A stretch of DNA of 64,000 nt from Pegea sp. RAD2-039 (Eukaryota > Chordata > Thaliacea > Salpida > Salpidae), in NCBI GenBank assembly GCA_034620365.1, contig JAQGEQ010000179.1:682001-746000 (forward strand). Direction: 5' to 3'. Within the stretch, counting starts at the first letter, position 1; every line of letters begins with the position of its first letter. The translations under genes were made by a program, and so were the position numbers. The notes under the pieces are model-generated. The model did no database searches. It saw only the letters and a program-made list of their open reading frames with translations, and had not been told where the DNA came from. Positions 899 through 49,176 of the stretch are shown here, piece after piece.

Positions 899-3003
899 TA
901 TACAAAAAAGAGTTATTTTTGTTTTTCTTGTTTATGTACCTATAAAACATTGAAATTTCAATTATTTAATTGGTGATTAGCATTTAATTCATTATAATAT
1001 AACATTATATCTCAAAAATTATATGAGAAATATTATTTTTTATTATAACAATAAAACTATAAAATTAAATTAAATAATCAGAAAAAGATAATAGGGACTG
1101 AAAGTTAAAAATGTTGATATAAATATTCAAAAATATAAAATATGATGAATATAATTTCTAGATAATTAAAACTTATAAGAAAGCAATGAAATAAAATAAA
1201 CAACAAATATATTATATGAATTAAATTAAAAAACAAACACTACTTATTCAAGAGTCAAAAAATATAAAAAATATTTAAACAAAGTATTTAAATAAATTAA
1301 GAAATAAATAGACATAGGACATCTAATTAAAATTTATCAAATCTCAAAATTTTAGGAAAATGAATTTGAATGAATGAATAAAAAAAAAGAATAACTGCTA
1401 AAAATCTTTTATTTAAATTTTACTTAGATATAAAACATGATAATTGAACGTTTAAAGAATCAACCTGTAATTTTTGGTAAAAACTGCATTGTTAATATAA
1501 GTAAAAAATCATATTATGAAACAATTAAATGAACAAATATATAAAAACAAACATATTTAACAAGTATAAACAATCATATTTATTTACAAAGTTGAAAATT
1601 TGATTTAGAAAACTCATTTTATTCCAGCATACAAAATATATAAAATTAAATATAACAAAAAGCAAATGAAAATAAGTGAAAATTATTTTATAAAATAGTA
1701 AATATTTTCAAACTAAAAGTTTAGAAGACCTTAATTGTGTTAAAATATAATGAAATACAAAGTTTTTTTTATTTAAAACTACAAGACATCGATAGCATAT
1801 GTTTTATTATGTATACAAAGCATATAAACATGAAAATCCTTATATTAAATGGCAATATGTATGAACTTGAAAAACGTCTTCGTCATTTTTATTATTTTTT
1901 CTCGAATACGGGGAAAGTTGCAGATTTTGTGGCCTCTATAAAGAATAAAAAGCGTGTTGTTCACAAAGTAATGTATACAAGTTTATATACCTACTGACAA
2001 TAAGTTTTTACATAAGATTGATTTATTGTATTGAGAACTCATTTTTATTTTATTTAAAATAAAACCTTAAAGATTTTTAATTTAAAACGTTAACCAATTG
2101 CATTTTTATGAAATAGAACAATGTTCTTATAAAATTGTAATTTCGAATACAATTAATCGCAAAATCAGATATTTTAAAAATGAGTTATCTCATGAATTTA
2201 AGAAATAATGTTTTATATTCTATCGAAGGATTTCACTATTGCCAGATATCCTTAATACTTTAATAAATAAGATGCTTTTAACATTTTCACACGATGGTTG
2301 TTATAAGAAGTTTTAATATATGAAAGATCAAATTTTATTAATGTGAGATGCCAGCTCATAGATGTATACTATTTAATGATCTGAAGACCTTTTATTCGTA
2401 AAGACACATTAAGTTAACTTTGCACTTTATGAACCACCTCATACATACACTAAACAAAGATGACTTCATATAAATGTTAATCAAATAATGTTAATGTACT
2501 TAGCTATTCCAACTTTAGACCTACGATCTTATACATTTTCTTTATTGCGTCCATATAATATTCTTATAAAGAGTTCGTTATGGTTAAAAATGTCTAAAAT
2601 TTCTTTATAATACAAAACTTGTTTTTCTATAATCCATTTGCTTCTTGCAAACGTTTTCTTTTAGCTAATTTTTTTCCCTTTTTAGATATTTTATTTGTAA
2701 ATAATTGTTTTTTAGTATAGAATTGTAATTATAATTTCACTTTTAAAATACAAATCTTTTTCTTAAATCCTAATTATTTTATTTTTTAAAGTAACTTCAG
2801 AAAGATTTTAATTTAAAAAAATAAAGGTCGTGTAAAATATTGTATAGATACAGGAGCAAATTTTTTTTCCTACTTTTGATAAATAAAATAAAACAAACAC
2901 ACAAATGAAAAGTAATAATTAAATGATTCCCAAAAGAAACCGAAAGTTGACATTTTAATTTATGTAGCTTCAACAATCTTCTGTAAATACTTAGTCAAAA
3001 CTC
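899..3003. other. AT-rich intergenic, no gene supported
   Basis: Low-complexity AT-rich DNA. The only long plus-strand frame (about 1737-1997) lacks an ATG start and codon texture. A possible isolated terminal exon on the minus strand (1935-1840) was noted but could not be joined to anything. Confidence 0.5.
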
Positions 3004-4810
3004 AGTATACATGAGTTTCCCACTCTTAAACTAGGAAGCTGGAACGTCCGTACTTTGACCGCCAGCACGGGTGTCAACATCATTAATATTCGTGACGTCA
3101 GAAAAACTGCCATCATTAAGAACGACCTCGCTCTTCCAAAAGTCGATATTTCTTCAAGAGACGCGCCTCGCTGTACATCTTTTTCTGGCAATGAAAGCCT
3201 GCCAACGAGCACAGAGAATATGATGTAGGTTTTGCTGATAAGAACAGCTTACTACGTTCAATAGTCGTAGATACGGATGGTAACAAACGAATAGCAACTC
3301 TCCGAATTGTCACCAAAAAAGGCGTACACCTTCTACACTGCTGATGACGTCAAAGATATGTTATATGAGAAACTCAATCGGTTATTGGCATGGTTCTCAT
3401 ACACGACGATCTAAAAAGTTCTGGGTGACTTTAATGCAAGAGTAGGTGCTGATCACCATTCCAGTCACGTTTTAATTATGGTCAGAAGAATTCTAACAGA
3501 CAACGCCTTTTTGAGGTTTGCTTTTCACAGAAACTCTGTATTACCAATTCATTTTTCATAACCAAACCACAACAGGAAGTTTTCTGGAAACCCCGCAATT
3601 TAAACATTGGTACCTGCTAGACCTCATCTTAGCAAGACGTAGTTTTCTATGTAATATGATATTGACAAAATCATTTCATAGGGGTTCACTTTCTAGTATG
3701 GTGCAAATTGCGTCTTTCAATTAAGATAAAGTGTAAGTCAAAAACAAAAAACATTTCACACGAACACGAACACTAAGGCAATAGTTCAATATGCTGGAAG
3801 CTGATCTGAGCCATTTATCATCAAAAATAGGCTAAAATAGGGATGTGTACTCACCCCAACCCCTTTTGGAGTTTTCATTACAATCTTGCTAAAACAAGCG
3901 TTTCATGTGAAGGAATGTAACTTCATTCAAGATCTGATGGAAATCTTTTTAATGCAGCATCGCTGATGGCAAAAAATAAGTTAAAAATTATCTAAATCTG
4001 CGACCTGCTTATTGCCGATGATGCAGAAATTGATGCACATTCAGCTAAAGACCTACAGATATTGATAAATCGATTTTCATCCGCTTGCACAGAGTTTGCA
4101 ATAAAAATCAGACTAAAAAAGACAACAGTTTTCTCAACCAAAGTGCCAACGTTCCACAGCCAATCAACATCAATGGCTGTGCCGCTGACGGTATAAACCA
4201 TTTTGTCTGCTCAATTCAAAGATAACATCATTAACATCAATACAAGCCAATGTTAACAGCGAGATCAGTTTAATATCGTAGGTAACATTTACAAGGTTTA
4301 ACTCTAGGGTCTAGGATAATGCACAGCCCTCTATCAATTCTTAGGCCGCTATCTATAGAGCCTTTGTATGCAGTCTCTAATATACGCCAGTAAAACTTGG
4401 ACTTTGTCGAAGGCTAGCGAAAATAAAATAATCCATTTTCGTTGTCTTCGTCACATACTACGTCTAACGTGGCAGAAAAGATCTCAAACAATGAGGTTTT
4501 AAGGCACACTGGTCTGACAACAATGTACAGCATGCTAAGCAAACAAATGCTTCGTTGGCTCGGACACATCCGACTGATAGATGACGGAAATCCCAAGCGA
4601 TCTGTTGTATGAGGAGCTATCAATGGGCAAACAGCAACATCGGTCGTTTTGTTTTCCCTTTTAAGATACTTGCAAGCGTAATATGAAATCGCTTAACATC
4701 AATACCAGCAATTGACAAGATATCGCATTACATCGCTCTGAATGGCGCTCTCTACTCTGCAAACAAATAGATAGAGAAGAAAAACCAGCTTCAAAGAAAA
4801 ACTCTAAAAA
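3004..4810 (+). mobile_element. Decayed non-LTR retrotransposon (APE endonuclease plus RT fragment)
   Basis: The plus strand reads as a broken LINE ORF2, interrupted by frameshifts and stops. The endonuclease N-terminus appears at about 3016 (LKLGSWNVRTLTAS). Further endonuclease blocks follow: KPANEHREYDVGFA near 3195, LGDFNARVGADHHS near 3420, and a C-terminal endonuclease block up to about 3700. At 3990-4170 there is the reverse transcriptase active-site region, with IADDAEIDAHSAKDLQIL in place of the usual YADD box. The C-terminal block LRWLGHIRLIDDGNPK lies near 4555, and HRSEWRSL near 4735. The palm and fingers between endonuclease and ADD box are missing, an internal deletion of several hundred codons. 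The piece is locally G+C-richer than its surroundings. Domain order is typical of APE-type LINEs (RTE/Jockey/CR1-like); I cannot assign the clade. It is not functional. Confidence 0.85.
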
Positions 4811-6170
4811 TTTTTTAGATCTTTTGCATTTCACTGTATCTTGCTCTTATACTTCCTCCGCATTTCGCTTTGTTTTGCTTTATTTCTAATAACACCAGCA
4901 TTTATTATTCTATTTGTACAAGAGATGTTGATTGAAAAACTTTAGTGAAATATTTACTTTCTTTACTTTTTTGTTTTTACTTTTTTGTATCATTGAATTT
5001 TTTATTTTCCGCTTCTACAGCAAAAAAATTTATGACTTAGTAAAATTTTGTGATTATAAAAATATAAAAAATAAACTAACAATTTTCCAATGCTTATTGT
5101 GAGTTCTTTAATAAAGTGCATTGTATTTATTATACTGTGGTCACGAACTCATTATATAATTTGAGTTTTTAAGATTTCTTTTGAAAATTATGAGTTTTGT
5201 ATATAAACTAAGAATTTTATCTTTTAGATTATAAACTGTTTTTCAAAAAAAGTATATACTGTAAAAAATAATTTATCTATTATATCCTAATATAAACTTT
5301 TTTCTTTAAACTTTTGGTAGATTTTTTCTCTACAACATTCGCTATGAACAATTAAATACCCCAGATGTCCCATCTATCATTTCATCACTTTTTTACTTAT
5401 TTAAATAAATTCAATAATTACAGCTTCAATAGACTTGAGATGTAAGCTACTTGGCAATGGAGTTGCTACTCATCTATTTGATGAATCATTTGAAAAAGTT
5501 CGAGTTGACAGATTTGATAAAATGAAAGTACACTTATTTTACATATGCTACAGATGTTTTATTTACAAAATGTTGTTATAGTGGATGATAAATTGTTTCA
5601 CAAAGGCTCTACAGTTAAGTTAACTTTATGGTGAAACATATAAAATAAATTACTTTTTTCTTTTCTCATAAAATAAATGAAATCTATTTCTCATTATTCA
5701 ACAATAGTTAATATTTAACTTTTTCAAACAACTCTTGCCCAAATTATTCCATTTAAATGTTATTAAAAGTTTATTTGGATAGAACATTGAACGTAACAAT
5801 AAAGTTTCAGAGATAAGTTTAGATTTAGTTTTTGTGATGATCTACTTTTAGAAAGTATTGGTATGGAAAAATACAAGTCTAGTTTGTATCTGTAACATAT
5901 GAACATTTGAAAAATAATAAATATTTTTCTTGCTTACTTTTAAATTTTTGTTTACAAACTTATCAAAGAGAAAGAAAATCAAGATTAAGTTGACAGTTGA
6001 TATATTTTTCATAAAGCAACTTAAAAAACAGGTCCTTTGAACTACAATTTTAGATCATAAGTAAGTCATAAACAGTTTCTAATAATTTCACCATTTCAAT
6101 TTTTTATATAAAAATCTTCATTTTAGACATTCTTTGATCTTCTGTCCTTGTTTTAAATCTTTTAAGTAAT
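4811..6170. other. Intergenic, with one orphan exon-like frame
   Basis: Mostly AT-rich DNA between the LINE and the first cytokine receptor gene. At 5424-5527 (+) an open block sits between a good acceptor (aattacag) and a possible donor (AAA|GTACAC). It would code 34 residues, beginning SIDLRCKLLGNGVATHLFDE. I could not place it in a gene. Confidence 0.4.
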
Positions 6171-8971
6171 ATGAGTAACAAATTGGCTTTTTTAGTTCTT
6201 GTAAATTTCAGTTTAATAATACATGCTACTACGAAAAATTTACTTCCAGGTTAGTGATGATTATTTTGTTTATTTGTTTTTGCAAATAATAAATATATTC
6301 AACCAACATTAATTCATAATATGTTTTTCAAGGACCTAAAAATATGAAATGTTGGTCGGTAGATTTTCATACTTATCTCTCAGTTGAACCAAACACCAAC
6401 TGGCCTCTACAGCAACCAACTTATGAAGTTCAGTATACGTAAGTCGAATACTTGTAAAATAAGTGTTAAAGACTACATCTTATACATACAGAATGAATAA
6501 TTAAAGTCATAAATAACTAAAAGAAAAAGAAAAATCTTATAAATTTATTAATTTCACAAAACTATCAATAAAATGTAATTATTTTGAAACACAATTTTGA
6601 TTTATAGATTTTAGGTAACACTTAAGATCAAAGTTTGTAACTATTTATTAATTGAGGCGTTTTAACTTTTGTTTAGTATCTTTTACTTGCAGATTTAAAC
6701 GTAGAGACAAGTGGAAAAACTGTAAGTGTAGTCCAATAAATGTTGATAAACTACCTTTCACATGTGAACTAACAATAAGTTTAGCTACAAGTAAGTTAAA
6801 CTTTTAATAATCTGTTTCGATTTGTTAATCACTGGCTAAACGTTTTAATCAGTTTTAGTCCGTGTGAGATCTATATGGACGAATTTTAGTGATGAGAGTT
6901 GGAACTATATTGCTTCAAAATGGTCTTACAGCAAGCATAAGATGAAAATGTTAAGACAAAGTAAGTTATTAAGGTTTTGTATTTATAAAAAATCGAATAA
7001 ATAATGATACAAGTTGAATTTCAATAACATATCAACGAATTCACTAAGCTTTTTGTATTACGAACAGCAAAAATAAACCCTCCAATTTTGACTCCTGTTT
7101 CAATTGAAGAAGATCAACTTATTTTGAAGGTAGAAATGCCCAAGAAAAGTCTTGCTTGCTCTTATGTGAACCAAGTGGAGTTTTATATTTACTTGAATGA
7201 ACTAAGTGGTAAATTTATTTCTTTGTTTTTTGTCTAAGGCTTTGTTCAAAATGAGTTTTGTAAGCTACTTTTTCGATGTTTTACAAACAACTTATTTTAT
7301 AACATTTCTTTGTTATTTCCTTTATATTAAAGTCGATTATATGATTTTTAAAATGAGATATTACAAACAGTAGAAACTTTATTTTAAAGAACAAAGTACA
7401 AACAGAAATTGTGAAAATTATACTATACCTGAAAAATTGGATCTTAGTGAGAGACAGATAAATAAGGTAAATTATAAAATACGTGAGAATATTGATATTC
7501 AATGCAGATTGATACTTTCCATAACTTACTATCTACAATTATCTTTTTAACTAAAGTCAACATACAGTGTAACAAAAATTCTACACCAATCTACGAACTA
7601 AATCTGAAATTTTTGAAACCAAACACTAAATATTGTGTTTTCGGATTTTACATGATCAAATATCCACTGCGTCAAAAATTTAGTGGCATGGAAAGTTTTC
7701 AATTTAAGACATTACCAAGTAAGTTAAAAATTATTAATTGGTCTAGATGCAAAAAGGATTAATTAAAAGCAAGTCTTATATTATACAGTTAAAAATTAGG
7801 ACTTTGTAATAAAACTATTTGTAAACAGAGTAGCTAGCTTTAAAATTGAGTTTAAATATTAATTATTTTGTAGATTCTGGTTACAATTCTCTGATCATAT
7901 GTTCTGTAGTAAGCTCTTTCTCGTGCTTGATTGTCATCTTTATTTTTCTCAAAATATTTATCAAGTATAGAATCAAAAATAACAAAAAGAATAAGGTATC
8001 AAAAATCAATAATTTTTTTTTGCAAATGCAAATGTATTAAACATTTTTTTTTAATTTTTTGTTTTCACAAATAGTAGAAAAATGTTTATACTTTATAAAA
8101 GTTTTATAATTTTTTCTCAGGAAGCGATAAAAAATCTCATCAATATTTTTGTGTAAGTTTTTGACTATTTTCGATCTAAAACTGTTCAAAAAAATGTAAA
8201 ATATTTTTCAAGTCTTATACAACTTCTTAAATTTAGCTAATTATTTAGTTTACAGAAACTTGAAGGTTTTATAAAGTTTGTCAAAATAGTTTAACATTAT
8301 TTTGAATATTATTTTTTTAAATTATTTGAGAGCACTGCTTAGAAATTTTTAATTCATTATTTTATAGAAGCAATGAACCTTTACACAGTTTTTCAATAGA
8401 TGAAGAAGAAACAGAACTATGTGAAAAATGCGACTGTCTTTTAAGTATATGAACCTAAAAAGTGTTTATCTCTAAAAAAGTTAAAAGAAAATCTTTTGAA
8501 AACCTTTACATTTAAGTCAACTGATTACATCAACTATTTTATACTTATTTATTTTGATAAATAAAACCACCAAAAATTATTATAATGGCATTTTGTTATA
8601 ATAAATCATCAAAGATTTCTAAATAAAGGTCACTCAAAATTAAATGAAATTGATAAACAATCTTTAAATGAAGAAGATGTTTCTTGGCAACTAAAAGATG
8701 ACTATAACGAAGAAACAAGTAGTGGTAAGACTATATAAATATTTGCTACAAATTGAATTTACTTTTCAACTTTGAAGAAACCTTCAATGAAAATCAAACT
8801 ACAATCAGCTTGATTGATGAATTGAATTGCTGCAACAACCGTAAAGGCAATCTAAGCAAATTGAACTTCTTGTATAACTCTGATGAAGATTTGACTGAAA
8901 GTTTTGAAATACCAAACAGAAGACTTCTTTCTTACGATACTGATGATAATAATGAGTACACGCGTAAATGA
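6171..8971 (+). CDS. Class II cytokine receptor-like type I membrane protein, copy A
   Basis: Twelve exons: 6171-6249, 6333-6438, 6693-6790, 6859-6960, 7068-7208, 7390-7466, 7508-7718, 7874-7995, 8121-8152, 8368-8444, 8629-8724, 8778-8971; total 444 aa. Order: signal peptide (about 1-19), D1 fibronectin-III-like domain (27-128), D2 (129-271), membrane helix (about 277-297, LIICSVVSSFSCLIVIFIF) and an acidic cytoplasmic tail (to 444). D1 carries CKCSPINVDKLPFTCELTIS followed by IRVRSIWTNFSDESW, which matches the C...C.LT....RVR....S.W pattern of class II receptors. D2 carries FLKPNTKYCVFGFYM, the usual L.P.T.YCV strand. Intron phases are 1,2,1,1,1,0,1,0,2,1,1; the CRF2 pattern as I recall it is 1,2,1,0,1,0 and is contained in this with extra introns. 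No class I WSXWS motif. The tail has several tyrosines (FLYNSDEDL, LLSYDTDDN, NNEYTRK) but no clear JAK box 1. An alternative reading ends at 8452 if the last three introns are not used. Family call is by pattern, not search. Confidence 0.75.
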
Positions 8972-9940: not shown

Positions 9941-12900
9941 TTAGTACTTTTTGACATAGTTCGAAGTTTCTTCTTCAAATACATTTTTATCTTCTTCGAT
10001 AAGATCGGTTAAACTTGACAATTCTAATTCAGAAAAACTTTGAAAAGTAGCCCGGATGTTATTTGTTTCAACCATTTGATCTTTTAGAGAGGAATATTTA
10101 GTATCAAGATGAAATCTTTCTATTGAAGATTCTTCTATAAACAAATGATTTCTATATCGTAAAAAGAAATTAGTCAAATTATTATTACCTTTATCATCAA
10201 ATGATTTTACTAATAATGTAGTACCTCTTAGGTTTGTGATATCTCTACTAATTTCTGTAAAAAATTAGAAAATTACCGATACTTGATTATAAAAAGACAA
10301 AGCTGTCAAAAAAAATTAAAATCAAAATATAAAGGTTGCTTCAGATGAAAAAACATATCTTCTACCATTTGTTAAAACAATTCAATAACCTCCTATTAAA
10401 TAAATCTATAAAATACATCACCAACTGTATGCACCTATTTTATGAACAAGTTCTTCAGATATTTCTTTAACTCCAAAATGAACTGTGTCATCTCTAAAAA
10501 ACAATTAAAAGTAATCAGGGTTTATTTCTAACAAGCTGTTACAGATTGAACCCAAAACTTACTTGCACAAGAAATGATGGTATTCTTCTAAGTATTCAGT
10601 CTGTATATTGTTATTTAATTATTTGAACACATTTAAACACTGATTTGATAATGCTTTTATATTAACTTTTAAGTTTTTGTATTACTAAAATGTAGATACT
10701 ACTTTACTTATTTTTAGTTTTGTTAAGTACATCTTTAAATCAATATTACTGATGTAGTTTGTTGTTGTAGCATACTTACAGGATCTAACAAAAGTTTATC
10801 AATATATTTTTGTTTTCTAGCGTAGCATGTGATCACGATAACTATGAAAATAAAGATGTTGATAATTCCAAACAGTATAAAAATGGGTTTCAATTTTTCT
10901 ACCATTGTAAGTCCTTTAAAAATACTAGTTTTAACTCTGAAGAAGAATTTGCCACAAATTCTAGTTACGTTTTTCTACTACGATGAAACTCATTTGACTG
11001 TATACTCCTAAACTAGATGAATGGTTGTAGATATACTTGGGATGGCTCACAACGCAGTATCTTGTGTTGGAATTGAGGTTCCACGAAGATAAGTTAACAT
11101 AACCTTGACAAGTATCCTATAACAATATTCATTTAGTAGAAATAAGTAGCAAGAAACTTATTTTCAAATTAAAGGTTTTCACGAGAAGCTCAAATCAAAC
11201 GTTTAATTTTTCTATTATTTCTAAAAATTGATTAAGATTTAATATCAAGAACCAAAAATGACTAACCTGTTTATAATCTATTTCAGAATCTTTCAAAATA
11301 AAAGATTTGGAATAGCTGTTTAAATGTTGCAATGATGATTTATTTTCAAATCTTTTATTGAAAGCTTCTTCTAAACAAATTTCAGTATCATCTGCATATA
11401 GACATTGTTACATTACAATGTGAATCTGATAAAACTTCAAAAACAATTTGCAGATTAAATTCTTTTAATAAACAAATAAGAATAATAAGATGATTGAATT
11501 TTATTACTCGATTTATTTGAAGTCCATAGCTATTTTGTCTTTAAAAAGTTTATTCTAGTTAACGTGTCGCTCAACTGGATAATATTTGAATCAATAACAA
11601 TAACAAATAATTTAATTTTGAAAAAAGTTGAGTATAACAACTGGTATAAATTCTTTTCTATAGTTGTGGTATCGAAGTTTTAATACTGCAAAGACATTTT
11701 AATACTAATAAAGAAATAATAAGTTTTAAACTTAGTTTACTAAAGACGTAAAAAGCATTTTTCTTGTGTTTAAAGTATGAAAGGACATATTAAAACTGTT
11801 CAACTATTTGCTTTATCCATACAAATGAAAAAGATTTTAGCCTAGATTTTTGTTATTATTTTACTGTTTGATTTATTGTATCATATTTTATTTTTATAGT
11901 AGATAAAATATTTAGAAAAATTTCTTTTAAAGTACTGCTTTTTTGACGGCCAGTTTTAAAGAAAACTAATTTTGTAAAGTATCAAGCTAAATAAATGTTC
12001 AGAGTTTCATTTGTTTTGCGTTCATATTATTTAAAGAAAAAACGTTTTTTAAAAATTAATTATTTAATTAATTATTTACACGTTTTCAAAAAATAAAAAA
12101 ATATCCATTGTAAAACACAAATTCTTGCAAATAGAATAATAAATAAAATGAATACTTACCTTGTAAAATGTAATAAAAGAAGTTTGCTACAATGTGTGAA
12201 TAGAAGCAAAGAGAAAAAGAGATCTTAATTTGAAAAGTGGCAGATGAAAATTTTAAATCTGCTGCACTTATATTTCCTATTATCGCAAAAAATTATTGGA
12301 TTAAATCGAATATAAAACTTAAATAAACATATTACAAACTAACTGAATCAAAAATGAAAATAAATGACTGATAGTTTCAACAATTTTTGTCGTTTTATAA
12401 TAGAGATTTATATAAATTTACACATTTACCTTCTTTTAAAAATGTAATAGTCCGTCCAAACTTTTTATATTTTGAATATTCTTTGTATGTCGAATTTTCC
12501 CACACTGCTTTTGCTCTAATTTCAGCTGTCAAAAATGTTCAATGAAATCAGATTATACATTTTAAAAGTGGTGAATATTTAATTGTAATAATTCCCCGAA
12601 AACCTATTCCATATAATTATTTATTTACTTGGATTTCTGTATCTGACAATAAGCAGTTTACATTTATAACTGGTAGTATTATCTTCTTCTTTACAAATAC
12701 GTTCCTCCCAAATAGGGTCTCCATCGACTCTGCATTTTCATATTGAAATGATAAGAGCTCAGTAAAGGAATATTAATTTATTATAAATTGATCACAAATA
12801 AAAAGAACTCTATTCATTAGAAGGAACTAGGACTACACAAGAATTAAAATAAACTCTACAATTGTCATCTTTTTCAACTTACCAATGCCATGTTGTAATC

Positions 12901-13706
12901 TTTTATCATATTACAATTATACTAATATATCTTGTGGTAAATCTAGTAAGTATATAATATCTGCTTTTATTTTCTATAACCGAAACAAACTATGTTTTAT
13001 ATCAACAAAACTGCATCAAAACATTTCAAATATTTTGTCATTTTACAGGTAATTTTTTGAAATCCAAAGTCAATGGAGGTATTGAGATGGAAATGCAAAT
13101 TAAGATTTTATAATTATCACGTTATACTAGGTAATTTAAACTGAAGTGAAAACAAACTTTATTTGAACATTACTTTAACCTGGTTTGTATCTTATATCTG
13201 GTTGGTTTTCTTAGCCAGTGTTTATTTGGTATCACTTCCAGCTGTACATTTAGATTAGTGATGTTGATATCAATCCTTTGAGGAGCTGAACAATGAAAAG
13301 CTTATTGCGACTTCAAAGAAACTTTATGAAGATACAAAAAGTGGTGTTTAAACGCTTGTAAAATATTTTTCGGAATTTGCGATGATTTTTAATGTAGTTT
13401 AAATAAAAGTATAATTAGTATCAATATTTGTAACATGGAAGGAAAAATATTAATTTCTAGTTATAACTTTTCACTTTTATAAAAGGTTTTTTATTGTTAT
13501 AATATAAAAATTTTCTTTGCAGATTAATTCTAGTAATAAACAAACTTAAACCAAGTTGATAGAGTTTATGCACCATCGTAAATAATTAATAAATAAAATA
13601 ATAGTTATAAGAAAGTCGAAGTACCTCTTTTGCGGAAAGACTTCTGATGACCAGAGACTACTAGATTGAAAAATAGTTGAATTAAAAGTAAGAAAGTTGA
13701 AGACAT
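9941..13706 (-). CDS. Class II cytokine receptor-like type I membrane protein, copy B
   Basis: Eleven exons on the minus strand: 13706-13625, 13285-13180, 12729-12629, 12525-12430, 12261-12160, 11391-11267, 11116-10969, 10898-10780, 10600-10563, 10493-10435, 10254-9941; total 429 aa. Signal peptide (about 1-19, TFLLLIQLFFNLVVSG), D1 (28-128), D2 (129-253), membrane helix (about 257-278, FILFGIINIFIFIVIVIT) and a long acidic tail ending YVKKY. D1 has ICKEEDNTTSYKCKLLIVRY then RAKAVWENSTYKEYS. D2 has WNLNSNTRYCVVSHPKY, matching the L.PNTKYCV strand of copy A. Every intron phase equals that of copy A (1,2,1,1,1,0,1,0,2,1), exon 2 has the same length (106 nt), and the four D2 cysteines fall in corresponding exons. 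The intron before the membrane exon is only 70 nt. Overall sequence identity to copy A is low. Probably an old inverted duplicate that binds another ligand or forms the partner chain; that is inference. Confidence 0.72.
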
Positions 13707-16079: not shown

Positions 16080-18425
16080 TCATCCTTGAGTTTCATTGAA
16101 TTCACTGCTTCTTCTGCAGCTTCTACTTAAGTCTGACAGCTCTCAAAGCACTGGTCAACATTTTCTGTTGTGCAGTTAACAAGCGCTGCCAATTTTCCTT
16201 GCATGTTCAATTCGACCCACACTTTTCCATGTAATTGGTAAAAGTTTTCTTCCAGTAACGCGATTTGCTAGATGCTGATGGACTATTTGGTTCTATAGAA
16301 AACTTACTTGATTTCAACACTGTATCGATTTTCTTTCTTTTTTTATATAAAATCAACTTTGTTACCATAAAAAACCAAATATACTTACTCGAAAAGAATG
16401 AACAATCCATAATAGGTGTGGCAAAAAGAAACTATCTTAACCGTTGCTAAGCTTTAACAGCACAAAGCTTCAATAACGCCAACACAACTAGCAACAATTC
16501 GTCCAAGAAATAAACTTGAATAATTTGAACAAATTGTAATAATAATGACTTTATATAGAGTTTTCTTCAAATTACTAAGACGACTAACAACAAGGATAAA
16601 TATATTGACGATACGTAATACCTACAACATAGCCTATTACCGAATGACAACGGTTTATACGAGAATGACGTTTAGTACATTTACGTCAGCGGCAAAATAC
16701 TTTACTGTTATACCACATTTGGTGAAGAAGGTCGGGATCTGTCCTCTTCATGACTCAACGTGTGGAATCAACGTCAGAATCTTATTAAACAGTACTCTGC
16801 TTAGATCCCTCAACGAGACGTTCGATTCACTTAAATCCGGAATCTGATCGTACATTGGATTAGTTTTCAACAATTCAACCGTTTTCGTAACATCTTTGTA
16901 ATGTTCTCGATATACAGGCCACTGAACGTCTTGTTGGGTAAGAGTGGCTGCCACAGCTACATCACTTGCATCACCTTGAATAGTCAAGTTTCATCAATAG
17001 CTTGGAATACTGGTTGGGCGATGTCCTTCTTTTTTTTGAGTTGAATATTTTTTCCTCCTGTAGAGAATTGATAAACCTTTTCAAATCGCTACTCTGTGTT
17101 TTTTAGGGCTTGAAGTTTCATCACATGTTTTCAACTTCCGGATTATAGCGCACTACTCGGCCATTGCCTTGTAGGTAGTACAGAATTGTACTACTGAATA
17201 GTTTTACAACAAATAAAAGAAAAGCGCAACAATAAGAAAGATAGAAAAGAAATCAATGTCAGCTTGCAGAGCGTGTGTCTAAAAGTGGTAGAGACTTGAG
17301 CTTCTGTGACTGATTTTTTCTTTGTTGCCGGTTGCCACATTTGTAGAGGTATGTCCCAATTGAAGGTCTGCACCCTTATTTTCAGTATCGGTCAAACTCA
17401 GATCTCTCTTTGTTGTATCTCTTGTTATGGTTGTCACGACTTTGACGGAATTCAATGATACTAGTAGAAAAACTCATATCTCTCCAGTCACGATTTTTGT
17501 TGCCTTCGTAATCCTTTCTCTTGCAATAAAGATATTCAGCCTCCCTAACTTTTGGTCGGAGCTAATCCCAGTTATCTTGCTTTCCAGCTCGTGAAGCCTT
17601 TTCTTCGGTCTTTCTCTTGTAGTAAATTGTAAAGTCTTCATAATTAGAACGTCTAGACTTCCATCTTGATTTCTGATAAGAGCCATCAGAAGCTCTTATT
17701 TGTCCAGCATGTTGTTAATCATTAGATCGTTTCTTACTTTCTTCACATGCTGAATTATAAGATTAACTTTTTTAGAGCTTTATTGTGTTACAAATTATCA
17801 TAACACAACGGTAACGAACAGCCAATGAAACTACCTTTTTACTGTGCAAAAAACCTCTAATAACACGTGCTTGTCCAGGCCTACCTCAAGTACACTTACG
17901 TATGCAGTCAGATAATCGTCTGACCTACCTTACAAATACATTACATACACGTGGCATAATTAAATAACTGCTTCTCTTGCAGCTTCAACCGATTTGTTAG
18001 CACCAAAAGATCGGTTGTTCCGTCAGGCACCCTCCAGTGTCACTGCTTATTCGAGGCTTCTTTTAATGTCAACGTTTTGCGCTATAATAACCGTTACCGT
18101 ATTTCTGATGAGCATAATTCTTATATAAAAGAAATCCTAGTCATACAAGGCAACTGTTCTGCTGCTGTGACTTTTTTTAATTAATTTGACTGCTGTTTCT
18201 CAGTTTACAGTAGAGGACGCGCAAACATTTCATGTAGTTTTTACATACAAACGTTCAACCTTCGCTTTAGCTTCTACATAAATCCGGCAGCTCTCACAGT
18301 ATATGTATCTGTCTGGGATTTTACAATTAACAAGTGTAGTCAATTTATCTTCATCATTTCTAGCTTACATGAACTTGTTTGGCAAACTAGTAAAAGTTTT
18401 ATTTGAAGCATGTTGGTACAAACAT
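16080..18425 (-). mobile_element. Remnants of LTR retrotransposon gag and pol, minus strand
   Basis: Several unlinked protein remnants read leftward. 18425-17940 has a decayed gag-like region (NKTFTSLPNKF, then LTTLVNC and YVEAKAKVERLYVKTT). 17700-17100 has moderately open frames with KKRLHELESKI and ATKKKSVTEAQ. 16987-16900 reads TIQGDASDVAVAATLTQQ, like the catalytic DAS...A.A.L.Q strand of retroelement RNase H. 16360-16085 is a second gag-like piece (FSIEPNSPSASSKSRYWKK, then LAALVNCTTENV). The shared LxxLVNC block shows that two gag copies flank the pol piece, so at least two insertions or a rearranged one are present. I could not find LTR ends. Most like Gypsy/Ty3-type elements; class assignment is tentative. 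Inactive. Confidence 0.6.
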
Positions 18426-20294: not shown

Positions 20295-23200
20295 ATGGCA
20301 GAAAAGTCTGTTTTTCTGATTAGTAAAACTCTAGCATTTATATTTGCTTTGATAATTGTGGCACTGTTTCTAGCTGAAGGTGACAAATCAATATATCGTT
20401 TACTAGCTTACACTTAAACAATTAAAACTTAGCTTATATAAGTTTGATTTTAAAATTAATTTGAATATACTAAATCATTGTTAGTTTTTTATTATCTTTT
20501 AATTACTCATTGAATTAAGATCAATTTATTGCTGTTGTTAATCAACTAAAATACATAATACTAAAGTCCTGTTCACCGAAATCTATTTACTAAATTAGAA
20601 TATATTAATTTTCTATTATATAAGGTTACTCATAAAATTTCGATAAAACTTAAACTTTTAGTTTATAAAAATGAAAGAGAATCTATAAAATAGCTCTTAA
20701 CTTGTCATTCAAAAATCCCTAACTAAACTATTATCTAGGTTTGATCATTGGATTGGTTGGTAGACCAGATTGCAGCACAAATGTACCAGAAACCAGCGAA
20801 GCACCATCAGTTGAAACCACTAAGCCACCAGTCGAAACCACTAAGCCACCAGTTGAAACGTCAACACCAGCTCAAGTATGACAAGATATATTTTTCCCTT
20901 AAAGTATTTTAAATCATATTATATCTCTGCCTATTTTCTATCAAAATCTTTATCTTGTTGGATTACTTATTAAACTGGAGAACGCAGTACTGATTGAAAA
21001 TTTGTCTGAACAGAATAACTTATGGGACGATGACCGATTACCAGATTCTTTAAAACCGAAGAGCTATGAAGTTGATTTAAGACCTGTATTTGTGATGGAA
21101 AAAGATACTTACTGGTTCTATGGTTCATCCAGTGTTATTTTTACTTGCATTAAACCAACTCAGTTTTTGCTTCTTCACACAAGGTTAAGATTTATTGGTT
21201 GTCACAAAATCTTCTACAATTAGATCTATTCGATTTAGAATATCAATTGTGTTGTTATATTTATTAAATGTGTAAAACAAAAATTTTATGAATCATATAA
21301 ATTTAAGTGAATAGAATTTAATTAAGAGTTTTTTTTATATAATTTACAATCGTTTAAAAGTCTTACATAATAAATATCAAAAAGTAAAAACTCAATAATA
21401 AATAAACTAATCATCTTTGTTTGGAAATTAAGTTGATAACACCTATACTATGACTTATAGTAATATAAAATTATTTATTAGTAATAAAAAATTTATGCAA
21501 ATTATTTATTTTTAAGAAACGTATTTACAAAAAATGATTGAAATATTCAATCAACATTTAGTAAATAAACGCTAAATAAATATTTGATGGTATTCACTAA
21601 CATATGTTTACAATTATTAAACAAATGTTTATGATCTGAAAAAAATAAATTAAAGTTTAATCGTTTGTTTGAATAGGGATTTAGTTTATGATGAAGAATT
21701 TTTGATTAAAAAAGTTTCTGATGGAAGTTCTATTGGGATCAAATCTCAATTATTTTATACAAAAAACAGTTATTTAGTGATTGAGTTGAATTCTGTTTGT
21801 GAAGAAGATGAAGAATATCAGTTTTCAGCTCCGTCATTTAAAGGAGAACTTGGAACTGATCTTGACGGCTTATACAGGAGCGAATATGTTAATGAAGATG
21901 GAAACCCCGTGTACGTGAACTGATTAAAATCTATTTACATTATTACCACCAAGCTTTTAAAACATCTAACACTTGAGCTTACAATAAAAGTATGTCAAAT
22001 ATTTTCAGTGTCATTGCCGTGTCACAAATGGAAACTGATGGTGCACGTCAAACATTTCCATGTTTTGATGAACCTGCTTTCAAAGCTGAATTTGTTATAA
22101 AACTCAGCCATACTGAAGACTACACAGCAGTTTCTAACATGCCTGTAACCCAACAGCAGGTTAATGAAGCCACAATAAATAAAATAAGGAATGTTGTGGA
22201 TGAAACAAAATAATAATTTGACTCGTTGTCAGAAATATTGAGTTGTCGACTATTCTTTGTATTGGTTACAGAATTACCAGGAAAGTGACGGTTCTAATTG
22301 GATAAAAACCACTTTTGGAGTTACTCCTGTGATGTCTTCATATTTGTTAGCTTTGACTGTTACAGACTTCAAATCAGTTAATGGCAGTACAATTAAAGGC
22401 GTCCAGGTCATAGATTTTGTAGTTTATTTATTAAAAATTGATGAATACAACTAACAAACTTTTTAAATTGCTTTATTTAAGTCAAGTAACAAGCGTTACG
22501 ATGTTCTAAACAACTTTAATTTATCTAAAGCTTATTACATTCTAGATACTCACTTATTTTATCGTTGCTTATTCTAATTTTTAGACTGGTATATACGGTA
22601 GAAGTATTCTAGTGGATAATGGTGATTTAGACTTCGCATCAGAAATATCTCCACAGCTCATTGATGTCTACGACGTTCATTTTAATGTCTTATACCCTCT
22701 TGTAAAATCAGGTGATTCTAAAATGAGGTTTTTGAAATAGTGATAAAAGTATTTTTATTCTTAAAAACTTCTTGCCAGGGAGGTTCCTGTAATATTAAAA
22801 CTATTTTATTTTAAAGTTTTTATGCAAGTAATGTGTGTGCTAAGATTACATTTTCTTATCAAGATCAGATGTGTGTACCTGATTTTGGCGCTGGAGCCAT
22901 GGAAAACTGGGGTTTGGTGATTTACCGCGAATATTATCTTATATACGATGCTATCATGTCATCCCCCAGTAACAAATACTCAGTTACAAGTGTAATTGCG
23001 CACGAACTCGCCCATCAGGTAAATTGTTTCATTTACAAAACTACTCGATAAGTAGTGATGATAAAAGTATTAGAAATATCAAACTAAAAATAAACTTTAA
23101 ATACTTTAGTGGTTTGGAAACCTTGTAACTTGTTCTTTTTGGAATGAAATTTGGTTAAATGAAGGGTTTGCTACTTATGTCAGTTATATCGGTACTGATG

Positions 23201-26200
23201 GAGTTAGACCAAATTGGGCTTCGGTGAGATTACATAAATTATAAATCACCTTCAAAAATGTGTCACCAACTGAAGAAATAATCTTTCTAAATTGCATTTG
23301 TTTTAATGATGCATGTTTTCTTTCAGTGGGAACTGTTTATAACAGATGACTTACAACTTGCCTTATCAGCAGACTCTTATTCAAACTCTCATCCATTAGT
23401 TCACCCAGAAGGTTACTTTTCCACCATTTCATACTCGAAGGTAAGTTGCAAAGCGTTTTTAAAACTAATTTCAATGCTATCTAGCATTTTACATTATTCA
23501 GCTTTTTAATTTGCCAGCTTTAATCATTCTTTTTTGGACAGGGTGGGTCTTTTTTGAGGATGGTAAATGATTTTCTTGGTGAAAATACATTCACCAATGG
23601 GCTGACGGTAATTGTATTTTAATTGGTTGTTTGTTAACATGACAGTAGATAATTTTCTATATTTGCAAAGCTTGTTTACAAAACTTGCTTTAAACTTAAT
23701 TAGAATGTATTTATCATTTTGTAAATATGTAACCTCTCTTAACTTGATAAAAAAGTAAACAAAACAAACATTACCAGTTTATAGTTGATGAACACCGTGT
23801 TTATTTTCGGAATTTTTTATGACAAACACAAGTTTACTGAAACTGTTGGTTGTCAGTTTCAACAAAACCTTTTAACTTTTTGTTTACAAGCTTAATGCAT
23901 TTTTACAAACTTATTGCAGTATTTGTTTATGAATTAAGCGTTTTAAAATTCATGAATAAATCAAGCCCCAAACAAATTAAAGTCATGATTAAAATGTCGG
24001 AAAAATAATGTTTAAAATTTGTGTAACTTCAGAATTACTTAAGGGACTTTTCTTACAATGTTGCATCTCATGACGATCTTTTCAATGCTTGGATTGAAGT
24101 AAGTAACATTTATAGATGGTTATTAAAAAGACTTCTCAAACGTTCAATGACAGATTATTACTTGATTAACCATGATGATTTGTTCAACAGCAAGCTGAAG
24201 AAGACGGAAAAACTTTTCCATTCGACTTACAAAATGTCTTTGAATCGTGGTCACTTCAAATGGGATATCCAATAATAACAGTAAAAAAAGAATCCTCTAA
24301 AATTGTAATGAAACAAGAATACTTCTTGGTTGATCCAACCGACTCACCTAGAGAGACTGAGCACAGTGATCTGTACAAGTAAAATCCTATTTTTATATCT
24401 AACAATTGATCAAAGAAAACAAGCTTTTAGAATTACATTTGTATAAATGATTTTTCAACTTAGTTACAAATGGTATGTACCAATCACTTACAAATTAGGA
24501 AGTGAAATTACTTCAAGCACACATGTTACTCGTTGGATGGGTCTGAATGATGGTGGTAAGTTTATTAGAGGTTAAATCGAGGGCAGATATTTAAAGGTAG
24601 TTAAGTAGAATGGGTAGTTGTATAAAATAAACGTTCAATTTTTGTATCTATTAAATATATATATTTTTCATTTTGATTAAGCAAAAAAACTTAAAAATTG
24701 TATTTTCAGTTTCAGTGGATATTGTTTCTGATGATTTTCTACTGGTAAACGTTGATGCTGTTGGCTTTTATCGAGTGCATTATGAAGGATCTTTATGGGA
24801 GGATATCAAACAAGCAGTAAAAGCTGACCCAGCGGTAACTACAAAGTTTTTTTTACATTTAAACTTTAATTCTTTGTATAATAACCAGTTTAAATGTCAT
24901 CGTACCAATATTGTTTGAAATTATTTATATTAAGATTACATTTTATCTACAAATTAATTTTGTTTAGAGCTTTTCACCACAAAACAGAGCTCAATTTATT
25001 GATGATGTATTTGCTCTTTCAAAGTAAGAATCATTAGAAATTTTATTCAAACAGGTAAATAGTAAATTACTGAAAAAGTTATGAAAAAATTCTAACTTAT
25101 CATACTTTTTAACTAAAATTTAAATTTTAGGTTGCTCTAACAGAAATAAAGTAAATATTTGAACTGTTTCATATCTACTTATTAGCTACCTAAATTATAT
25201 ATGGCATCTGCTTAATTTAGGATGAGTAAATAACATTTATGAGGTCAAAATAATAACGACATTGAATTAACAATAGAATAGCAGAAAATAAGCTGTAAGT
25301 ATAAATGTTTCACAGATCTGAAAGAGTGGATGTTGAAGAGGTTTTGGATTTATCTTTATATCTAAAAGATGAACATGATTATATTCCCTGGTACACATTT
25401 TACTCAGGAATAGATTATTATGACCGAATGTTATCTGGTTCCGAAATTTATGGAGATTTTTCAGTACGTTTTTTGCTAACTAAAAATTCGATATACTTTT
25501 AGAAAAGTCATAAAAAAGTTGATATTCGTTTTAAAAAATCTTGATTACTTGAAAAAATAGAAATACATGCTGGAATTGAGTCTTGATTCTATGTATAAAT
25601 ACTACGGTTGGAACGAAAGTGATACATCCGATGATGCTTTTATTGAAAGGTCACCTTAAATAGCTTCTTAATGAAAATCTTTTTATAAGAAACTAAGAAC
25701 TAGATAATTTTGACAAATTATTTAAAATAGTTTAAGATTTTGCAATACTCGTAATATTAAGCAACATTAAGTAATCTACAGTTAGTAAAATATTCTTAAT
25801 ATAAAGTTTGCAAACAAAGTAAAGTCTTCAAACTTTATCTAACTTTTCTTGTAAAGACTTTCACGTGGTGTGGGAGTAGATGTAGCTTGCTTTTACCGAG
25901 ATACTGACTGTGTTGAAACGTCTCAGTATCTCTACTCATTGTGGATGCAAGACACGACTAATTTGTAAGATATTCACTTCAAAGATTAAATAATCAACTA
26001 AAGTTTATGATGCAGAGTCAGTGGAACTTACAGATCTGACGTTTATTGCGCAGCCATTAGAGCCGGAGGAATCAAAGAATGGGATTTTGCTTGGGAGCAG
26101 TATTTAGCATCAGATAGTGCACAGCATCAAACTAGTTTGAGGTGAGTTGGATTTTTTGACTTCTTATAATTTAATAATTACTGCAAACACATGACCGCTC

Positions 26201-27414
26201 ACGGCTGAAGCGGACCTTGTTACTATTATTACTACAAATAACTGTAATTTCTGTTATGTGACCGACATAAGGATAATTCAAAAAGCATTATATATATATA
26301 TAGAAATCATACAACTATTTATTAGATAGATTATATACATTTATTAGAATTGCATTTTTAAACATTGTTAAAGTTATTCACATAAGTCGTTATAGTTTCG
26401 TTAAATTGAGTTTTTAGAAAGTAATATGCAAGTAGTTTAAAATACTTTAACTGATTTAAGGTACGGGATGTCATGTAGTAACGATCCTTGGATAATTAAT
26501 CGTTACTTGGAAAGAACATTGAATACTCAGTTTATTCGGCTTCAAGACTCTTCTAGTACTTTATCCTATATCGGTCGACATGAAAACTCGAAATATGTTG
26601 CTTGGGCGTTTGCGTTCAACAATTGGGACAGAATGAATGATATGTAATAATTAGCTAACAGTTTTAACAATACTTTTTCTCCATTTATACAATTATAACT
26701 GATGTATTGCTTATCTAAAATGTTTATTATTAAATTTATTTTTTGTATTTTAGTTGTTAACATTTAACTGATTTGTATTTACTTTCAAATTTTGTGACCT
26801 ACAGTTTATTTTTAAATTTCTTTACTAAGATGTTAAAGAATAACTTTTTAAATAGCCAAAAATATACAACAGTTTAAAGAACTTAAAGTTTAGTTGATTT
26901 TTGTAAATAATTTTTGATAGTGTCGGAAGCAGCGCTACATCGAGTCTTTTAAGTGCTGCAGTTGGAAGATTCTCAACAAAATATGATCTTCAACTGGTCA
27001 GTATTGTTTTATTGAAATAAACTTTATTTTTCAACTCTTTCCTTTAATAAAACCAAAACTAGTGGCTACGTTGTTCAATTAGTAAACTTTAGTAAACCTA
27101 ACTGATTTATTTCTAAAATTTTATTTTTCCAAACTTTGCTATAGGTTGAAAGTTTAAGAGATATAGCAGCCTCAAATTGGGAAGGAACAATAAATTCTTA
27201 TAAATCCTCGATTGAAACAAATATGAGATGGAGAGAACTGAATGAGGAAAAGATCGCTAGATGGCTTGCACCAGCGAAACAATACTCATTTGATAAATCT
27301 ATGTTCAAAATTGTAAATTCTACTCCTAAAAATAAGTTGGAGACACAAAAAAATACTCCATTCCCAAAAAGAAGGATGTTTGAAAAGCCACAATTTTTGC
27401 ATAATCTTGTTTGA
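20295..27414 (+). CDS. M1 family aminopeptidase N-like ectoenzyme (type II membrane protein)
   Basis: A zinc metallopeptidase that should remove N-terminal residues from peptides outside the cell. Twenty-three exons, all junction phases agreeing: 20295-20379, 20739-20875, 20981-21183, 21677-21910, 22009-22159, 22272-22406, 22585-22711, 22864-23018, 23110-23223, 23327-23440, 23542-23607, 24033-24098, 24191-24378, 24464-24555, 24710-24834, 24968-25023, 25316-25463, 25561-25649, 25857-25964, 26016-26141, 26461-26643, 26921-26996, 27145-27414; about 1015 aa. Short cytosolic N-terminus, signal anchor (about 13-35), Thr/Pro stalk with repeated VETTKPP. Beta domain includes [18 protein letters not shown]. 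Catalytic domain: GAMEN at about 368-372, HELAH (404-408) with the third zinc ligand in WLNEGFA (427), and the ISYSK tyrosine (483). C-terminal ERAP1-like part and an unusual basic tail past RWL. Exon 3 could instead start at 21014; exon 5's donor is the least certain. All catalytic residues are present, so it is probably active. Confidence 0.93.
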
Positions 27415-31902: not shown

Positions 31903-34900
31903 ATGGGGGGATTATGTTGTAGTTGCTGCTTTGATCAAGAAGATGAAACGGTAATTTTGATTTTGTTTGATAAACTTTCTAATGAAAAAGTCTTGTAATT
32001 TGAAACTTTTTATTTTCATTACAAAATTGAACTTTGAAAAAGATATATTGGCAGGAATATGAGTCTCTTTTAAAAGATGATAAGAAAGATGAAATCGAAG
32101 TGGATACCTCATATTTATCTTCTCGAATTGCTAATTTGTTAGTTAACTAATGTACAAACTGAATTATTGTTGATAATTTAGCTGACAGCTTGAAATTTTA
32201 GTTCAACTTATAACTCGTAATCTGAAATTATATAAATTTTGTTGATCTATTTCTTCAATTGTTTATATTTTTGTTTGCAAAATATAAATAAATTGATTTA
32301 AGATAAAGTTATTGTTAAGAAATTCAAAGTTTACAAAATGACTTTTGAATATATTTCACTATAATGTCAGTGAGATTAAAAAAGTTGAAACATGACTTCT
32401 TTTACTAAAACTTTCTTGACTGATGAATTTGTTGTAGATACTCTGTTGAATTACCTGTTGATGAAAGTTTACCTTCTAAAAGAAGAAGAACTGCCATGGA
32501 ATTATTACAAACAGAAGCAACTTATCTAAAGAACTTATCCATTATAATTGAGGTGACAGCTTATATAGTTTTCATCTGTTAAAAAATACGAGTTACTTGC
32601 AAATGAAATCTTTTCATTAATATCTTCTAATTCTTTTCATAATTCTAATTTATTTCTATTTTTCTCAATCTCTAGATGTTTAAGGTACCTTTAGAAAAAG
32701 CTGCTGTCGATATCAGCCCACCACCCTTAGCTTTGCCAGATATTGAAAATATATTTGGTGGGATAAATGCAATTAAAGAGGTCCATGTCCAAATATATAA
32801 AGATTTAAAAGAACTAATTGATGATTGGGACGAAGAATGTTGTGTAGGAGAAGTTATTTGCAAATATGAAGATAAACTGATCAAAGTAAGCAAAACACTT
32901 TGAACCATGTATAATTGATGAATAGATTTTGTTGAACCTCTAGGTATACCCTCCATACGTAAACTATTATGATATGGGAGTTGAATTGCTACAAAAAAGA
33001 CTAAATCATAATCCAACCTTGGAGAAATTTCTAAAAGATTGTAGATCTGAATCTATTTGTATGAATCAACCTCTATCATCTTTTATGATAAGGCCAGTTC
33101 AACGTTTACCCAGCATGTCTCTACTTATGAAAGGTTTGTTAAAAATCAGCAACTGTTTGTTTGCTGTTTGATTTGATCTTGTAGATAGTTTGCTAGCTTT
33201 AATTGGATTTGATTTATAAATTTTTGTTTTAGATTTGCATAGAAGAACTCCTGATACTTTGAAAGATTATCAGTTTTTAGAAAAGGCTGAAAAAGCTCTT
33301 AAAAATATTCTCTCTTATATAAATGAAGACAAGAGACGAGTTGAACAAAAAGCAAAAATATTTGATTTAGTATATGAGGTAAGAATTAAAAGTTTTATCA
33401 CTATTGACTAGCTTTAAACTAATCAAATAATCAAAATCTATCTCAAAAACTAAAATTGAAAATTAGTTGAATGTTTAGGAACGAAAAAATTGTCTGAATG
33501 ATTATATTTCTATTTACTTCATCTAATTTGTATTTATTTGCGATTATGTAAAATGTTTGCTGTGCTGTCTCTATTTTTATAAAACTTTTAAGAATTTTAA
33601 TCGAATATCTTTCTAAGAATGATTTAATTTCAGCATCACAATATGACAGAGTATTGAATTTTCTTACTCGTTCTTAATCTATTTGTTACTAATATCCTTC
33701 TCAAATTGTAGATTGTAACATTTTGATTTTAAGGATAAGGTCTCTAGAGAAAGTTTAAATCATCATTTAATTAAAAAAATTCTAAAAATAACGTAGAGTA
33801 TATAGCGACTAATTAAGAAGAGATAAGAAACAACTAAGCATACACTAAACTTCGAGTTAGGTGTGCAAGAATTTACTTTCATCAATTTACCAAAGAAATT
33901 TGAGTTGCTTGTCATTGAGAAAATATCAAATATTTAAAATCAATTTGTATTTAAATTAAAGATCTGATTGATAAAACTATATAATTGTTCAAACCCTTTT
34001 TAGCTTATTCAATTATGAAAGATATATTTTGATGGAATTATTATTTGAACTGTCAAACTGATCTAAACTATTTAGATGTTAATACTTTCTAAATGTCGTT
34101 TACATCATAACACTTCCGGAAATTTTAAGCATTAAATAGTTTGAGGTGTCGTTAAAATATCAAACTAAATAAAATTCCTATTTAGCTTGATTAATCGAAT
34201 CTTTAAATCTCGTTTATCTGCAAGCTAATTGAAGAGGTCGTAATTAAGCATCGAGTAGTTAAACCATTGACAAGTATGTCTCTGCATCTCTTCTTTACAA
34301 ACTGCTAGATTTTACTCTTAGCTTATTTTTACTCTTAAAAACTTTTCCAAAGGATTATAGGCCGCTTTTTACTTCGCTTTTTAATCGATGTAACGACACA
34401 TAATAAAAACTTTAACCTCACCAAGTATTTGGCCGCTGATAAAAAAAAAACTCTCATACGCCATCTAGTGATGGATCTCATGAACAGAAGTTTTCGATTT
34501 AAGATTATATTATTAATTGTTTATTTTAACGATTAGTAAGTTTTCAAAGAATTTTATTAACATCTTTATACTATTATCTTTTTGAAGTGATGAATTTCTA
34601 TCAGATAAAATTAAAAGTTTTTTAAGAGAAAATAAATTGATTATTTTGAACTTGTATAAATTGACTTATGTCTTTCTAACTATCAGAAGCTGAAGAATTC
34701 GTTTTTTTTTCGTTTTTTTTTAACTTTTTATTTATTCGAAACATAATTGTCTTCAAAAAAACATTAAAATCGTCATCTCTATGTTTAATAAAATAGTAAT
34801 CATCAGAAATAAGTTTCAATCTCAAAACCAAAATACAATTTTGATATCAGTTGTTTTTAACACTATCACAAACTCTCTCACACCGGAAGTGACGTCATTT

Positions 34901-49000: not shown

Positions 49001-49176
49001 ATTACTCCGATAACAAATATTAAGGCGAAAACTACAGTTAAACTAATTAGTTCAACAACCGTTTCTGAATTCTTTGTTGCGTTGACTGATTCAATAGTTT
49101 GATTAAAAGTTGAATTTGCAAATGTGGTAAAGTAGCCAGTGAAGTTGACCGATAAAGCTGTAGCCTCAGTGAACAT
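46009..49176 (-). CDS. Class A peptide GPCR, galanin/allatostatin-A receptor-like
   Basis: Four exons on the minus strand: 49176-48743, 46967-46838, 46726-46469, 46413-46009; 408 aa, phases 2, 0, 0 consistent. The extracellular N-terminus has at least four N-glycosylation sequons. TM1 has IGVIGNSLVI, TM2 LNLALADLLFLMICIP, and Cys before TM3 (SFLCYF). TM3 ends LSFDRYFAIVHAL with an intact DRY split by intron 1. ECL2 Cys is in KPLCMEAP, TM5 has GYAVPLVF, and TM7 TNCCCNPVIYAFVSRSFRQD has an intact NPxxY. TM2/TM3 wording and VSRSFRQDF after TM7 are closest to galanin, allatostatin-A and kisspeptin receptors. TM6 is odd: the usual C-W-x-P reads D-W-F-L (FAFDWFLYHTV), so the conserved kink proline is lost. 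It should couple a neuropeptide signal to a G protein; ligand unknown. The first intron is 1.8 kb, the others short. Confidence 0.85.

Follow-up and report, generated by a model that had tools for sequence, protein, structure and literature searches.

The locus examined here raises the question of whether a compact, AT-rich animal genome that does not look vertebrate carries a true member of the class II cytokine receptor family (CRF2), and of how such a gene would fit with what is known of these receptors. The window, by which we mean the whole stretch of DNA analysed, covers 64 kb of contig C29, which belongs to a genome of 105.7 Mb in 387 contigs. Measured in 2-kb bins, its GC content lies between 20 and 31% in 29 of the 32 bins and reaches 32, 35 and 37% in the other three. 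An earlier note on this DNA had recognized in it a 12-exon class II receptor-like gene with a signal peptide, two fibronectin-III-like domains (D1 and D2), one membrane helix and a tail.

Gene A and the genome that carries it

Gene A (positions 6171-8971 of the window, + strand) follows a hand-built splice model with 12 coding exons and a predicted protein of 424 aa. Splicing reproduced this model as it had been proposed, with all 11 introns of the GT...AG type and an unbroken phase (1,2,1,1,1,0,1,0,2,1,1). Exon 1 (6171-6249), which ends in phase 1, contains the start codon and a signal peptide that was judged by eye, the mean hydropathy of the segment being below 1.6. D1 is encoded by exons 2-4 at 6333-6960 (6333-6438, 6693-6790 and 6859-6960) and carries the patterns W...C...C.LT and RVR..W. 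D2 corresponds to exons 5-7 at 7068-7718 (7068-7208, 7390-7466 and 7568-7718), with the strand LKPNTKYCV and phase 0 at the start of exon 7. Exon 8 (7874-7995) was assigned by hydropathy to the membrane helix, which is single, as had been claimed (residues 259-277, mean hydropathy 2.78), and ends in phase 0. The predicted cytoplasmic tail occupies exons 9-12 at 8121-8971 (8121-8152, 8368-8444, 8629-8724 and 8778-8971). The model contains two weak donors, gtatca after 7995 (exon 8) and gtatat after 8444. Exons 11 and 12 hang on the second of them (at 8445), and no part of the model is less certain than the tail, since the frame would stop within a few bases if gtatat were not used.

Long frames of the same genome (2769 counts including pseudocounts) served to train codon scores, and the scores of the exons were compared with a null of 3000 stop-free windows of 30 codons from presumed intergenic region. 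The scores of exons 2-6 and 10-12 (8 of the 12) were equalled by less than 6% of the null windows, among them exon 11 (0.2%) and exon 12 (2%). Exon 7 stood at 10%, and exons 1, 8 and 9 were unremarkable. This test is supportive only, because similar scores are common in other reading frames.

The assignment of gene A to a family comes from searches against Pfam and the PDB. Tissue_fac (PF01108) was the sole Pfam family matched by the 424-aa form, reaching 44.9 bits where the curated cut-off is 27 (E 1.1e-11, residues 8-103), and a 292-aa form reached 45.9 bits against the same cut-off. Only two sequences from the PDB matched the 292-aa form at E<=10, and both belong to the class II cytokine receptor family, namely IL-20 receptor alpha at E 0.0013 and IL-22RA2 at E 0.073. 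The alignment with IL-20RA spans both domains (query 25-236, chain 9-199; 292-aa form). D2 by itself matched Interfer-bind (PF09294) weakly (15.2 bits, the cut-off being 21; E 0.027) and had no matches in the PDB. Judged from sequence comparison, the D1 match to the class II family is far beyond chance, and the predicted protein is homologous to class II receptors, clearly in D1 and weakly in D2. Taken with intron phases that agree with the family and the lack of a WSxWS motif, these matches uphold the description of gene A as class II cytokine receptor-like.

The nature of the host was approached through marker families. A glycosyl hydrolase family 6 profile matched a single genomic place with 27.5 bits (cut-off 27), where one exon piece alone reached 35.5 bits and a second piece 21.9, below the cut-off. 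To our knowledge, the only glycosyl hydrolase 6 in animals is the tunicate cellulose synthase, and we know of no vertebrate genome nearly as small as this one. The connexin profile gave 54 exon-level matches at E<=0.001 over many contigs (best 2.4e-36), which suggests a connexin family of sizeable extent; connexins are used by chordates and innexins by non-chordates, according to the relevant passage of PMC8769644. A search of the assembly for COX1 produced no match. The view that the genome is not vertebrate very probably holds, with connexins, a GH6 domain and the small genome size together indicating a tunicate, and hence a chordate. A rotifer or another protostome, which size and AT content alone might have suggested, was discarded as the host on the strength of the connexins and GH6. 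Since tunicates are the sister group of vertebrates, the receptor family is less out of place here than had been supposed.

Several other features were seen in the window. A rhodopsin-family GPCR lies at 48742-49233 (- strand), probably extending to about 46009 by eye (7tm_1, 63.4 bits); among PDB sequences its first piece comes nearest to the galanin receptors, with galanin receptor type 1 at E 2.1e-21. A gene with short exons for an M1 family aminopeptidase is found at 21977-23048 (+ strand; probably about 21650-27400 by eye), two pieces of which matched Peptidase_M1_N (69.2 bits) and Peptidase_M1 (66.7 bits), and a RhoGEF-domain piece is located at 32944-33168 (+ strand, 54.8 bits). Positions 3996-4193 may hold a reverse-transcriptase fragment (14.3 bits, with the cut-off at 29.6). 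Neither the frame at 35493-35777 nor the piece at 2995-3225 matched any Pfam family. Finally, a 605-bp segment in the GC-richest bin (16113-16717) is repeated with 96% identity on the same contig (L039 1390-1994) and is possibly a mobile element.

A neighbouring paralogue, a broken copy and a third gene

Next to gene A, and tail to tail with it, lies gene B (9941-13706, - strand), which the earlier note does not mention, with 11 coding exons and a predicted protein of 439 aa; the coding ends of the two genes are 969 bases apart. The signal segment of gene B is the only one among genes A, B and C to exceed a mean hydropathy of 1.6. D1 is assigned to exons 2-4 (12430-13285; z against the gene A exons 6.24, -0.16 and 2.61), D2 to exons 5-7 (10969-12276, with LNSNTRYCV; z 1.45, 0.48 and 2.44) and the membrane helix to exon 8 (10780-10913; residues 269-287, mean hydropathy 3.12). 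Ten introns are common to both genes, with equal phases (1,2,1,1,1,0,1,0,2,1), an agreement that is partly selected because the splice sites of gene B were picked with the pattern of gene A in mind. Protein similarity was therefore used as the independent test of paralogy. BLASTP of A against B gave E 2e-5, with 24% identity over 109 positions of the signal and D1. In a global alignment exon by exon, the ten matched pairs had a mean z of 2.10 vs. -0.04 for 90 mismatched pairs, and the matched exon of gene B was the best partner for six of ten gene A exons. The similarity is strong in exon 2, while the pairs of exons 3, 5, 6, 8 and 9 are not significant, and the last tail exons (11-12 of A and 11 of B) could not be aligned (z -1.05). 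In a multiple alignment, gene B is 21% and gene C 20% identical to gene A. Codon scores were equalled by less than 6% of the null windows for 7 of the 11 gene B exons (2-4, 7 and 9-11) and were unremarkable for exons 1, 5, 6 and 8. Alone, gene B matched no Pfam family, neither Tissue_fac nor Interfer-bind, and only two PDB sequences at E<=10, both from unrelated proteins. On these comparisons the predicted gene B is a paralogue of gene A, and it belongs to the class II family through A only, since it resembles A and has no Pfam or PDB family match of its own.

The same contig contains a partial copy of gene A about 130 kb away (C29:818316-819420, equivalent to L039 5817-6921, - strand), which matches positions 6021-7124 of the window over 1105 bp with 98.4% identity. 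It holds exons 1-4 and part of exon 5 and breaks off at a stop codon, so that its product would comprise only the signal peptide and D1. There are six differences from gene A in 442 exonic bases, five of which change an amino acid.

A search of the genome with the Tissue_fac profile identified two places, one of which is the gene that we call C (contig C71). Including its last exon, the gene C model predicts 425 aa. Its first 332 aa matched Tissue_fac (42.4 bits, cut-off 27) and, following it as expected, Interfer-bind at 29 bits, above its cut-off of 21. Against the PDB, the same 332 aa retrieved class II receptors as all 28 sequences at E<0.001 and as 31 of 33 at E<=10. The best match was IFNAR1 (E 4.3e-11), and the 28 sequences are variants of IFNAR1, IL-20RA, IFNGR1, tissue factor, IL-10R2 and IL-22RA2, many of them tissue factor. 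A single strong membrane helix is predicted C-terminal of the ectodomain. The cysteines of gene C are spaced by 8 (81-89) and 23 (206-229), as in tissue factor; in genes A and B the D1 spacing differs, the last D2 cysteine is absent and there are additional cysteines in D2. By the measure of these matches, gene C is the clearest member of the family among the three predicted proteins. A connexin match about 4 kb away on the same contig argues against contamination as its source. At the level of the ectodomains, the similarity of C to A is weak (z 1.72) and that of C to B is not significant (z -0.53). When A, B and C were combined in one profile, class II receptors made up the top 24 PDB matches and 25 of the 32 at E<=1.

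The three ectodomains were also used to search the genome, and the 22 matches at E<=10 belonged to gene A (7), gene B (7), gene C (4) and the partial copy of A (4). Profile searches miss true members because exons are scored singly: the Tissue_fac search missed gene A and the Interfer-bind search missed gene C. More divergent members of the family could have escaped. Among the candidates that we rejected, C1:797536 (Tissue_fac, 27.5 bits) lies in a frame of 6547 aa that was taken, on the frame alone, for a giant FN3 protein. The Interfer-bind profile reached nine places in the genome at E<=10 (best 27.2 bits). They were inspected by eye at L003, L004, L005, L007, L009, L010 and L011, leaving aside L006 and L008; those on C114 looked like FN3 arrays and those on C19 and C249 like Ig/FN3 receptors, and the nine places were discarded as candidates for class II receptors. 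The region C114:79183-92580 contains many fibronectin-III-like repeats, some nearly identical, with a weak Interfer-bind match below the cut-off.

A further line of comparison is given by the intron phases. The order 1-2-1-0-1-0 is found in most vertebrate IFN-upsilon R1 genes and is conserved with respect to other IFN receptor genes, as described in a section of PMC8863823. Our comparison covers phases and domain order. Up to the membrane exon, genes A and B read 1-2-[1]-1-[1]-0-1-0, where the brackets mark extra introns, which in gene A are one phase-1 intron within D1 and another within D2. Of the remaining introns of gene A, the one that comes after the signal peptide is in phase 1, the one within D1 (behind VQY) in phase 2 and the one between D1 and D2 in phase 1; phase 0 is found before the YCV strand, phase 1 before the membrane helix and phase 0 after it. 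Gene C reads 1-1-[0]-0-0, with an extra phase-0 intron in D2. Of the six introns typical of the family, two are absent from it, one in phase 2 within D1 and one in phase 1 ahead of the helix.

Competing readings and a possible receptor complex

Genes A to C could be homologues of class II receptors that do not signal at all, acting as protease cofactors or as decoys. One protein of class II fold, tissue factor, works as a protease cofactor, and its chains appear among the PDB matches of gene C (best E 8.2e-7) and of the combined profile (best E 0.0016). A clear JAK-binding motif was not seen in the tail of gene A, and the genome yielded no ligand to the IL10 and Interferon profiles; since these searches were equally silent in every control genome, the absence of a ligand is not demonstrated by them. 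Against such a role, the membrane helix is followed by more than 140 residues in each of the three models, unlike in tissue factor, whose cytoplasmic tail is short. The box-1-like segment PTFLKEMF of gene C, cut by a phase-0 intron, may also speak for signalling; it resembles box 1 of IL-10R2-type chains, but a PDB search with this region recovered one unrelated chain and no receptor.

The genome moreover contains both a JAK and a STAT. The JAK is a single open frame of 1144 aa on C46 (L018; L041 1264-4698, - strand), so that at least most of this gene, unlike the receptor genes, has no introns. FERM_F2 was matched at 65.1 bits (cut-off 26) and the kinase domain in two stretches (PK_Tyr_Ser-Thr, 321.9 bits), while SH2_1 (25.1 against 27), FERM_F1 (22.1 against 26.1) and Jak1_Phl (18.9 against 26.1) remained just below their cut-offs. 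Its best PDB match, at E 2.3e-86, was a full-length chain with the title tyrosine-protein kinase. Among the best 60 matches 57 were named JAK1, JAK2, JAK3 or TYK2, two just tyrosine-protein kinase and one, second in order, was epidermal growth factor receptor. The STAT is found on C18, with STAT_bind at 59 and 44.9 bits in two adjoining stretches. We consider a non-signalling role rather improbable for genes A to C.

It is still less likely that gene A or gene B is a decaying copy and not a working gene. The locus has shed one broken copy (the 98.4% identical partial A described above), gene B is highly divergent, and codon scores are unremarkable in four exons of A (out of 12) and four of B (out of 11), other frames often scoring similarly. 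On the other hand, open frames and splice sites are kept throughout both genes, with a mutual identity of about 20%, and most exons of each (8 of 12 and 7 of 11) have codon scores that few null windows equal. We regard decay as very unlikely. As for a class I cytokine receptor (of the gp130 or domeless type) or some other FN3 receptor grown class II-like by convergence, both classes do carry FN3-like domains in pairs and other FN3-type frames do reach Interfer-bind, as its nine genomic places attest, but WSxWS was found in none of the three proteins, class I receptors are absent from the two PDB matches of A and the 33 of C, and the intron phases fit class II, which leaves this reading hardly credible.

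The reading that we prefer, and hold to be quite probably right, is that gene A is a predicted tunicate class II cytokine receptor and gene B its divergent neighbouring paralogue, both with a presumed role in a receptor complex. The products of A, B and C would then be chains of one or more complexes at the cell surface. The elbow between D1 and D2 would be the place where a secreted helical cytokine binds two chains, and their pairing by the ligand would bring together the JAK-carrying tails, with STAT carrying the signal onward as in the vertebrate IL-10 and interferon receptors. We infer this ligand-driven pairing and JAK-STAT signalling, by analogy, from family membership and from the presence of JAK and STAT in the genome. 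Under the same explanation, the class II family and its exon layout would predate the split between tunicates and vertebrates.

A more elaborate version can be offered only tentatively. The tunicate might have a multi-chain class II system of its own, formed by the duplicated, quickly diverging pair A and B, an IL-10R2-like gene C of canonical type, its own JAK and STAT, perhaps a soluble product that consists of D1 only and comes from the broken copy of A, and a helical cytokine that has gone unrecognised. If this were true, signalling of the interferon and IL-10 type would be older than the vertebrates.

Comparison with known receptors

The earlier note also held that the family is poorly documented outside vertebrates. 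This is correct in that such receptors have rarely been described there, but members from Ciona and amphioxus are already in print, so that the surprise is moderate: one apparent class II receptor each is mentioned for Ciona intestinalis and Branchiostoma floridae in a passage of PMC3210801, citing Krause and Pestka (2005). Genes A to C are hence new members of a family already known, and for this animal group a single member had been noted before. In the parts of the openly licensed full-text literature consulted, we found no paper devoted to class II receptors of tunicates. The 2007 survey of class I receptors reports two of that class in Ciona, and in the passages of it that were examined class II comes up only with regard to tissue factor and once in a reference (PMC1963337). 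As far as the relevant passages of other papers go, the IL-10 receptors are dated to cartilaginous fishes by an analysis from 2025 (PMC12652433), and interferons with their receptors are taken by a review to have arisen within vertebrates (PMC5332411). An IFN-mediated antiviral response has not been seen in tunicates or amphioxus, according to a statement in PMC8218723, and this counts against the reading preferred here; the same paper also contains the proposal of an interferon-like receptor in the oyster, CgIFNR-3 ('IFN receptor-like 3', also cytokine receptor-like 3). Three tunicate receptors, one with both domains recognisable and two whose intron phases run in the vertebrate order, support an origin of the receptor and of its architecture before the split. 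They also provide concrete chains with which a non-vertebrate ligand can be sought.

Among invertebrates, the oyster CgIFNR-3 can be likened to gene A by description only, as an interferon-like receptor. Ciona intestinalis is a tunicate too, with a reported class II receptor of the same family. Again by description only, Ciona and Branchiostoma floridae have one receptor each in the passage cited, whereas here there are three genes, two of them tail to tail. From the vertebrate class II receptors the tunicate genes differ by their strong divergence, by the two extra introns of A and B, and by the last D2 cysteine, which A and B lack and C has. The likeness to the vertebrate chains (IL-20RA, IL-22RA2, IL-10R2, IFNAR1, IFNGR1 and tissue factor) consists in a Tissue_fac D1 in genes A and C and a single membrane helix, in a D2 that in gene A is weak on its own but covered by the whole-length alignment and that in gene C is recognisable, with both Pfam domains above their cut-offs, and in the phase order 1-2-1-0-1-0, which is also that of genes A and B.
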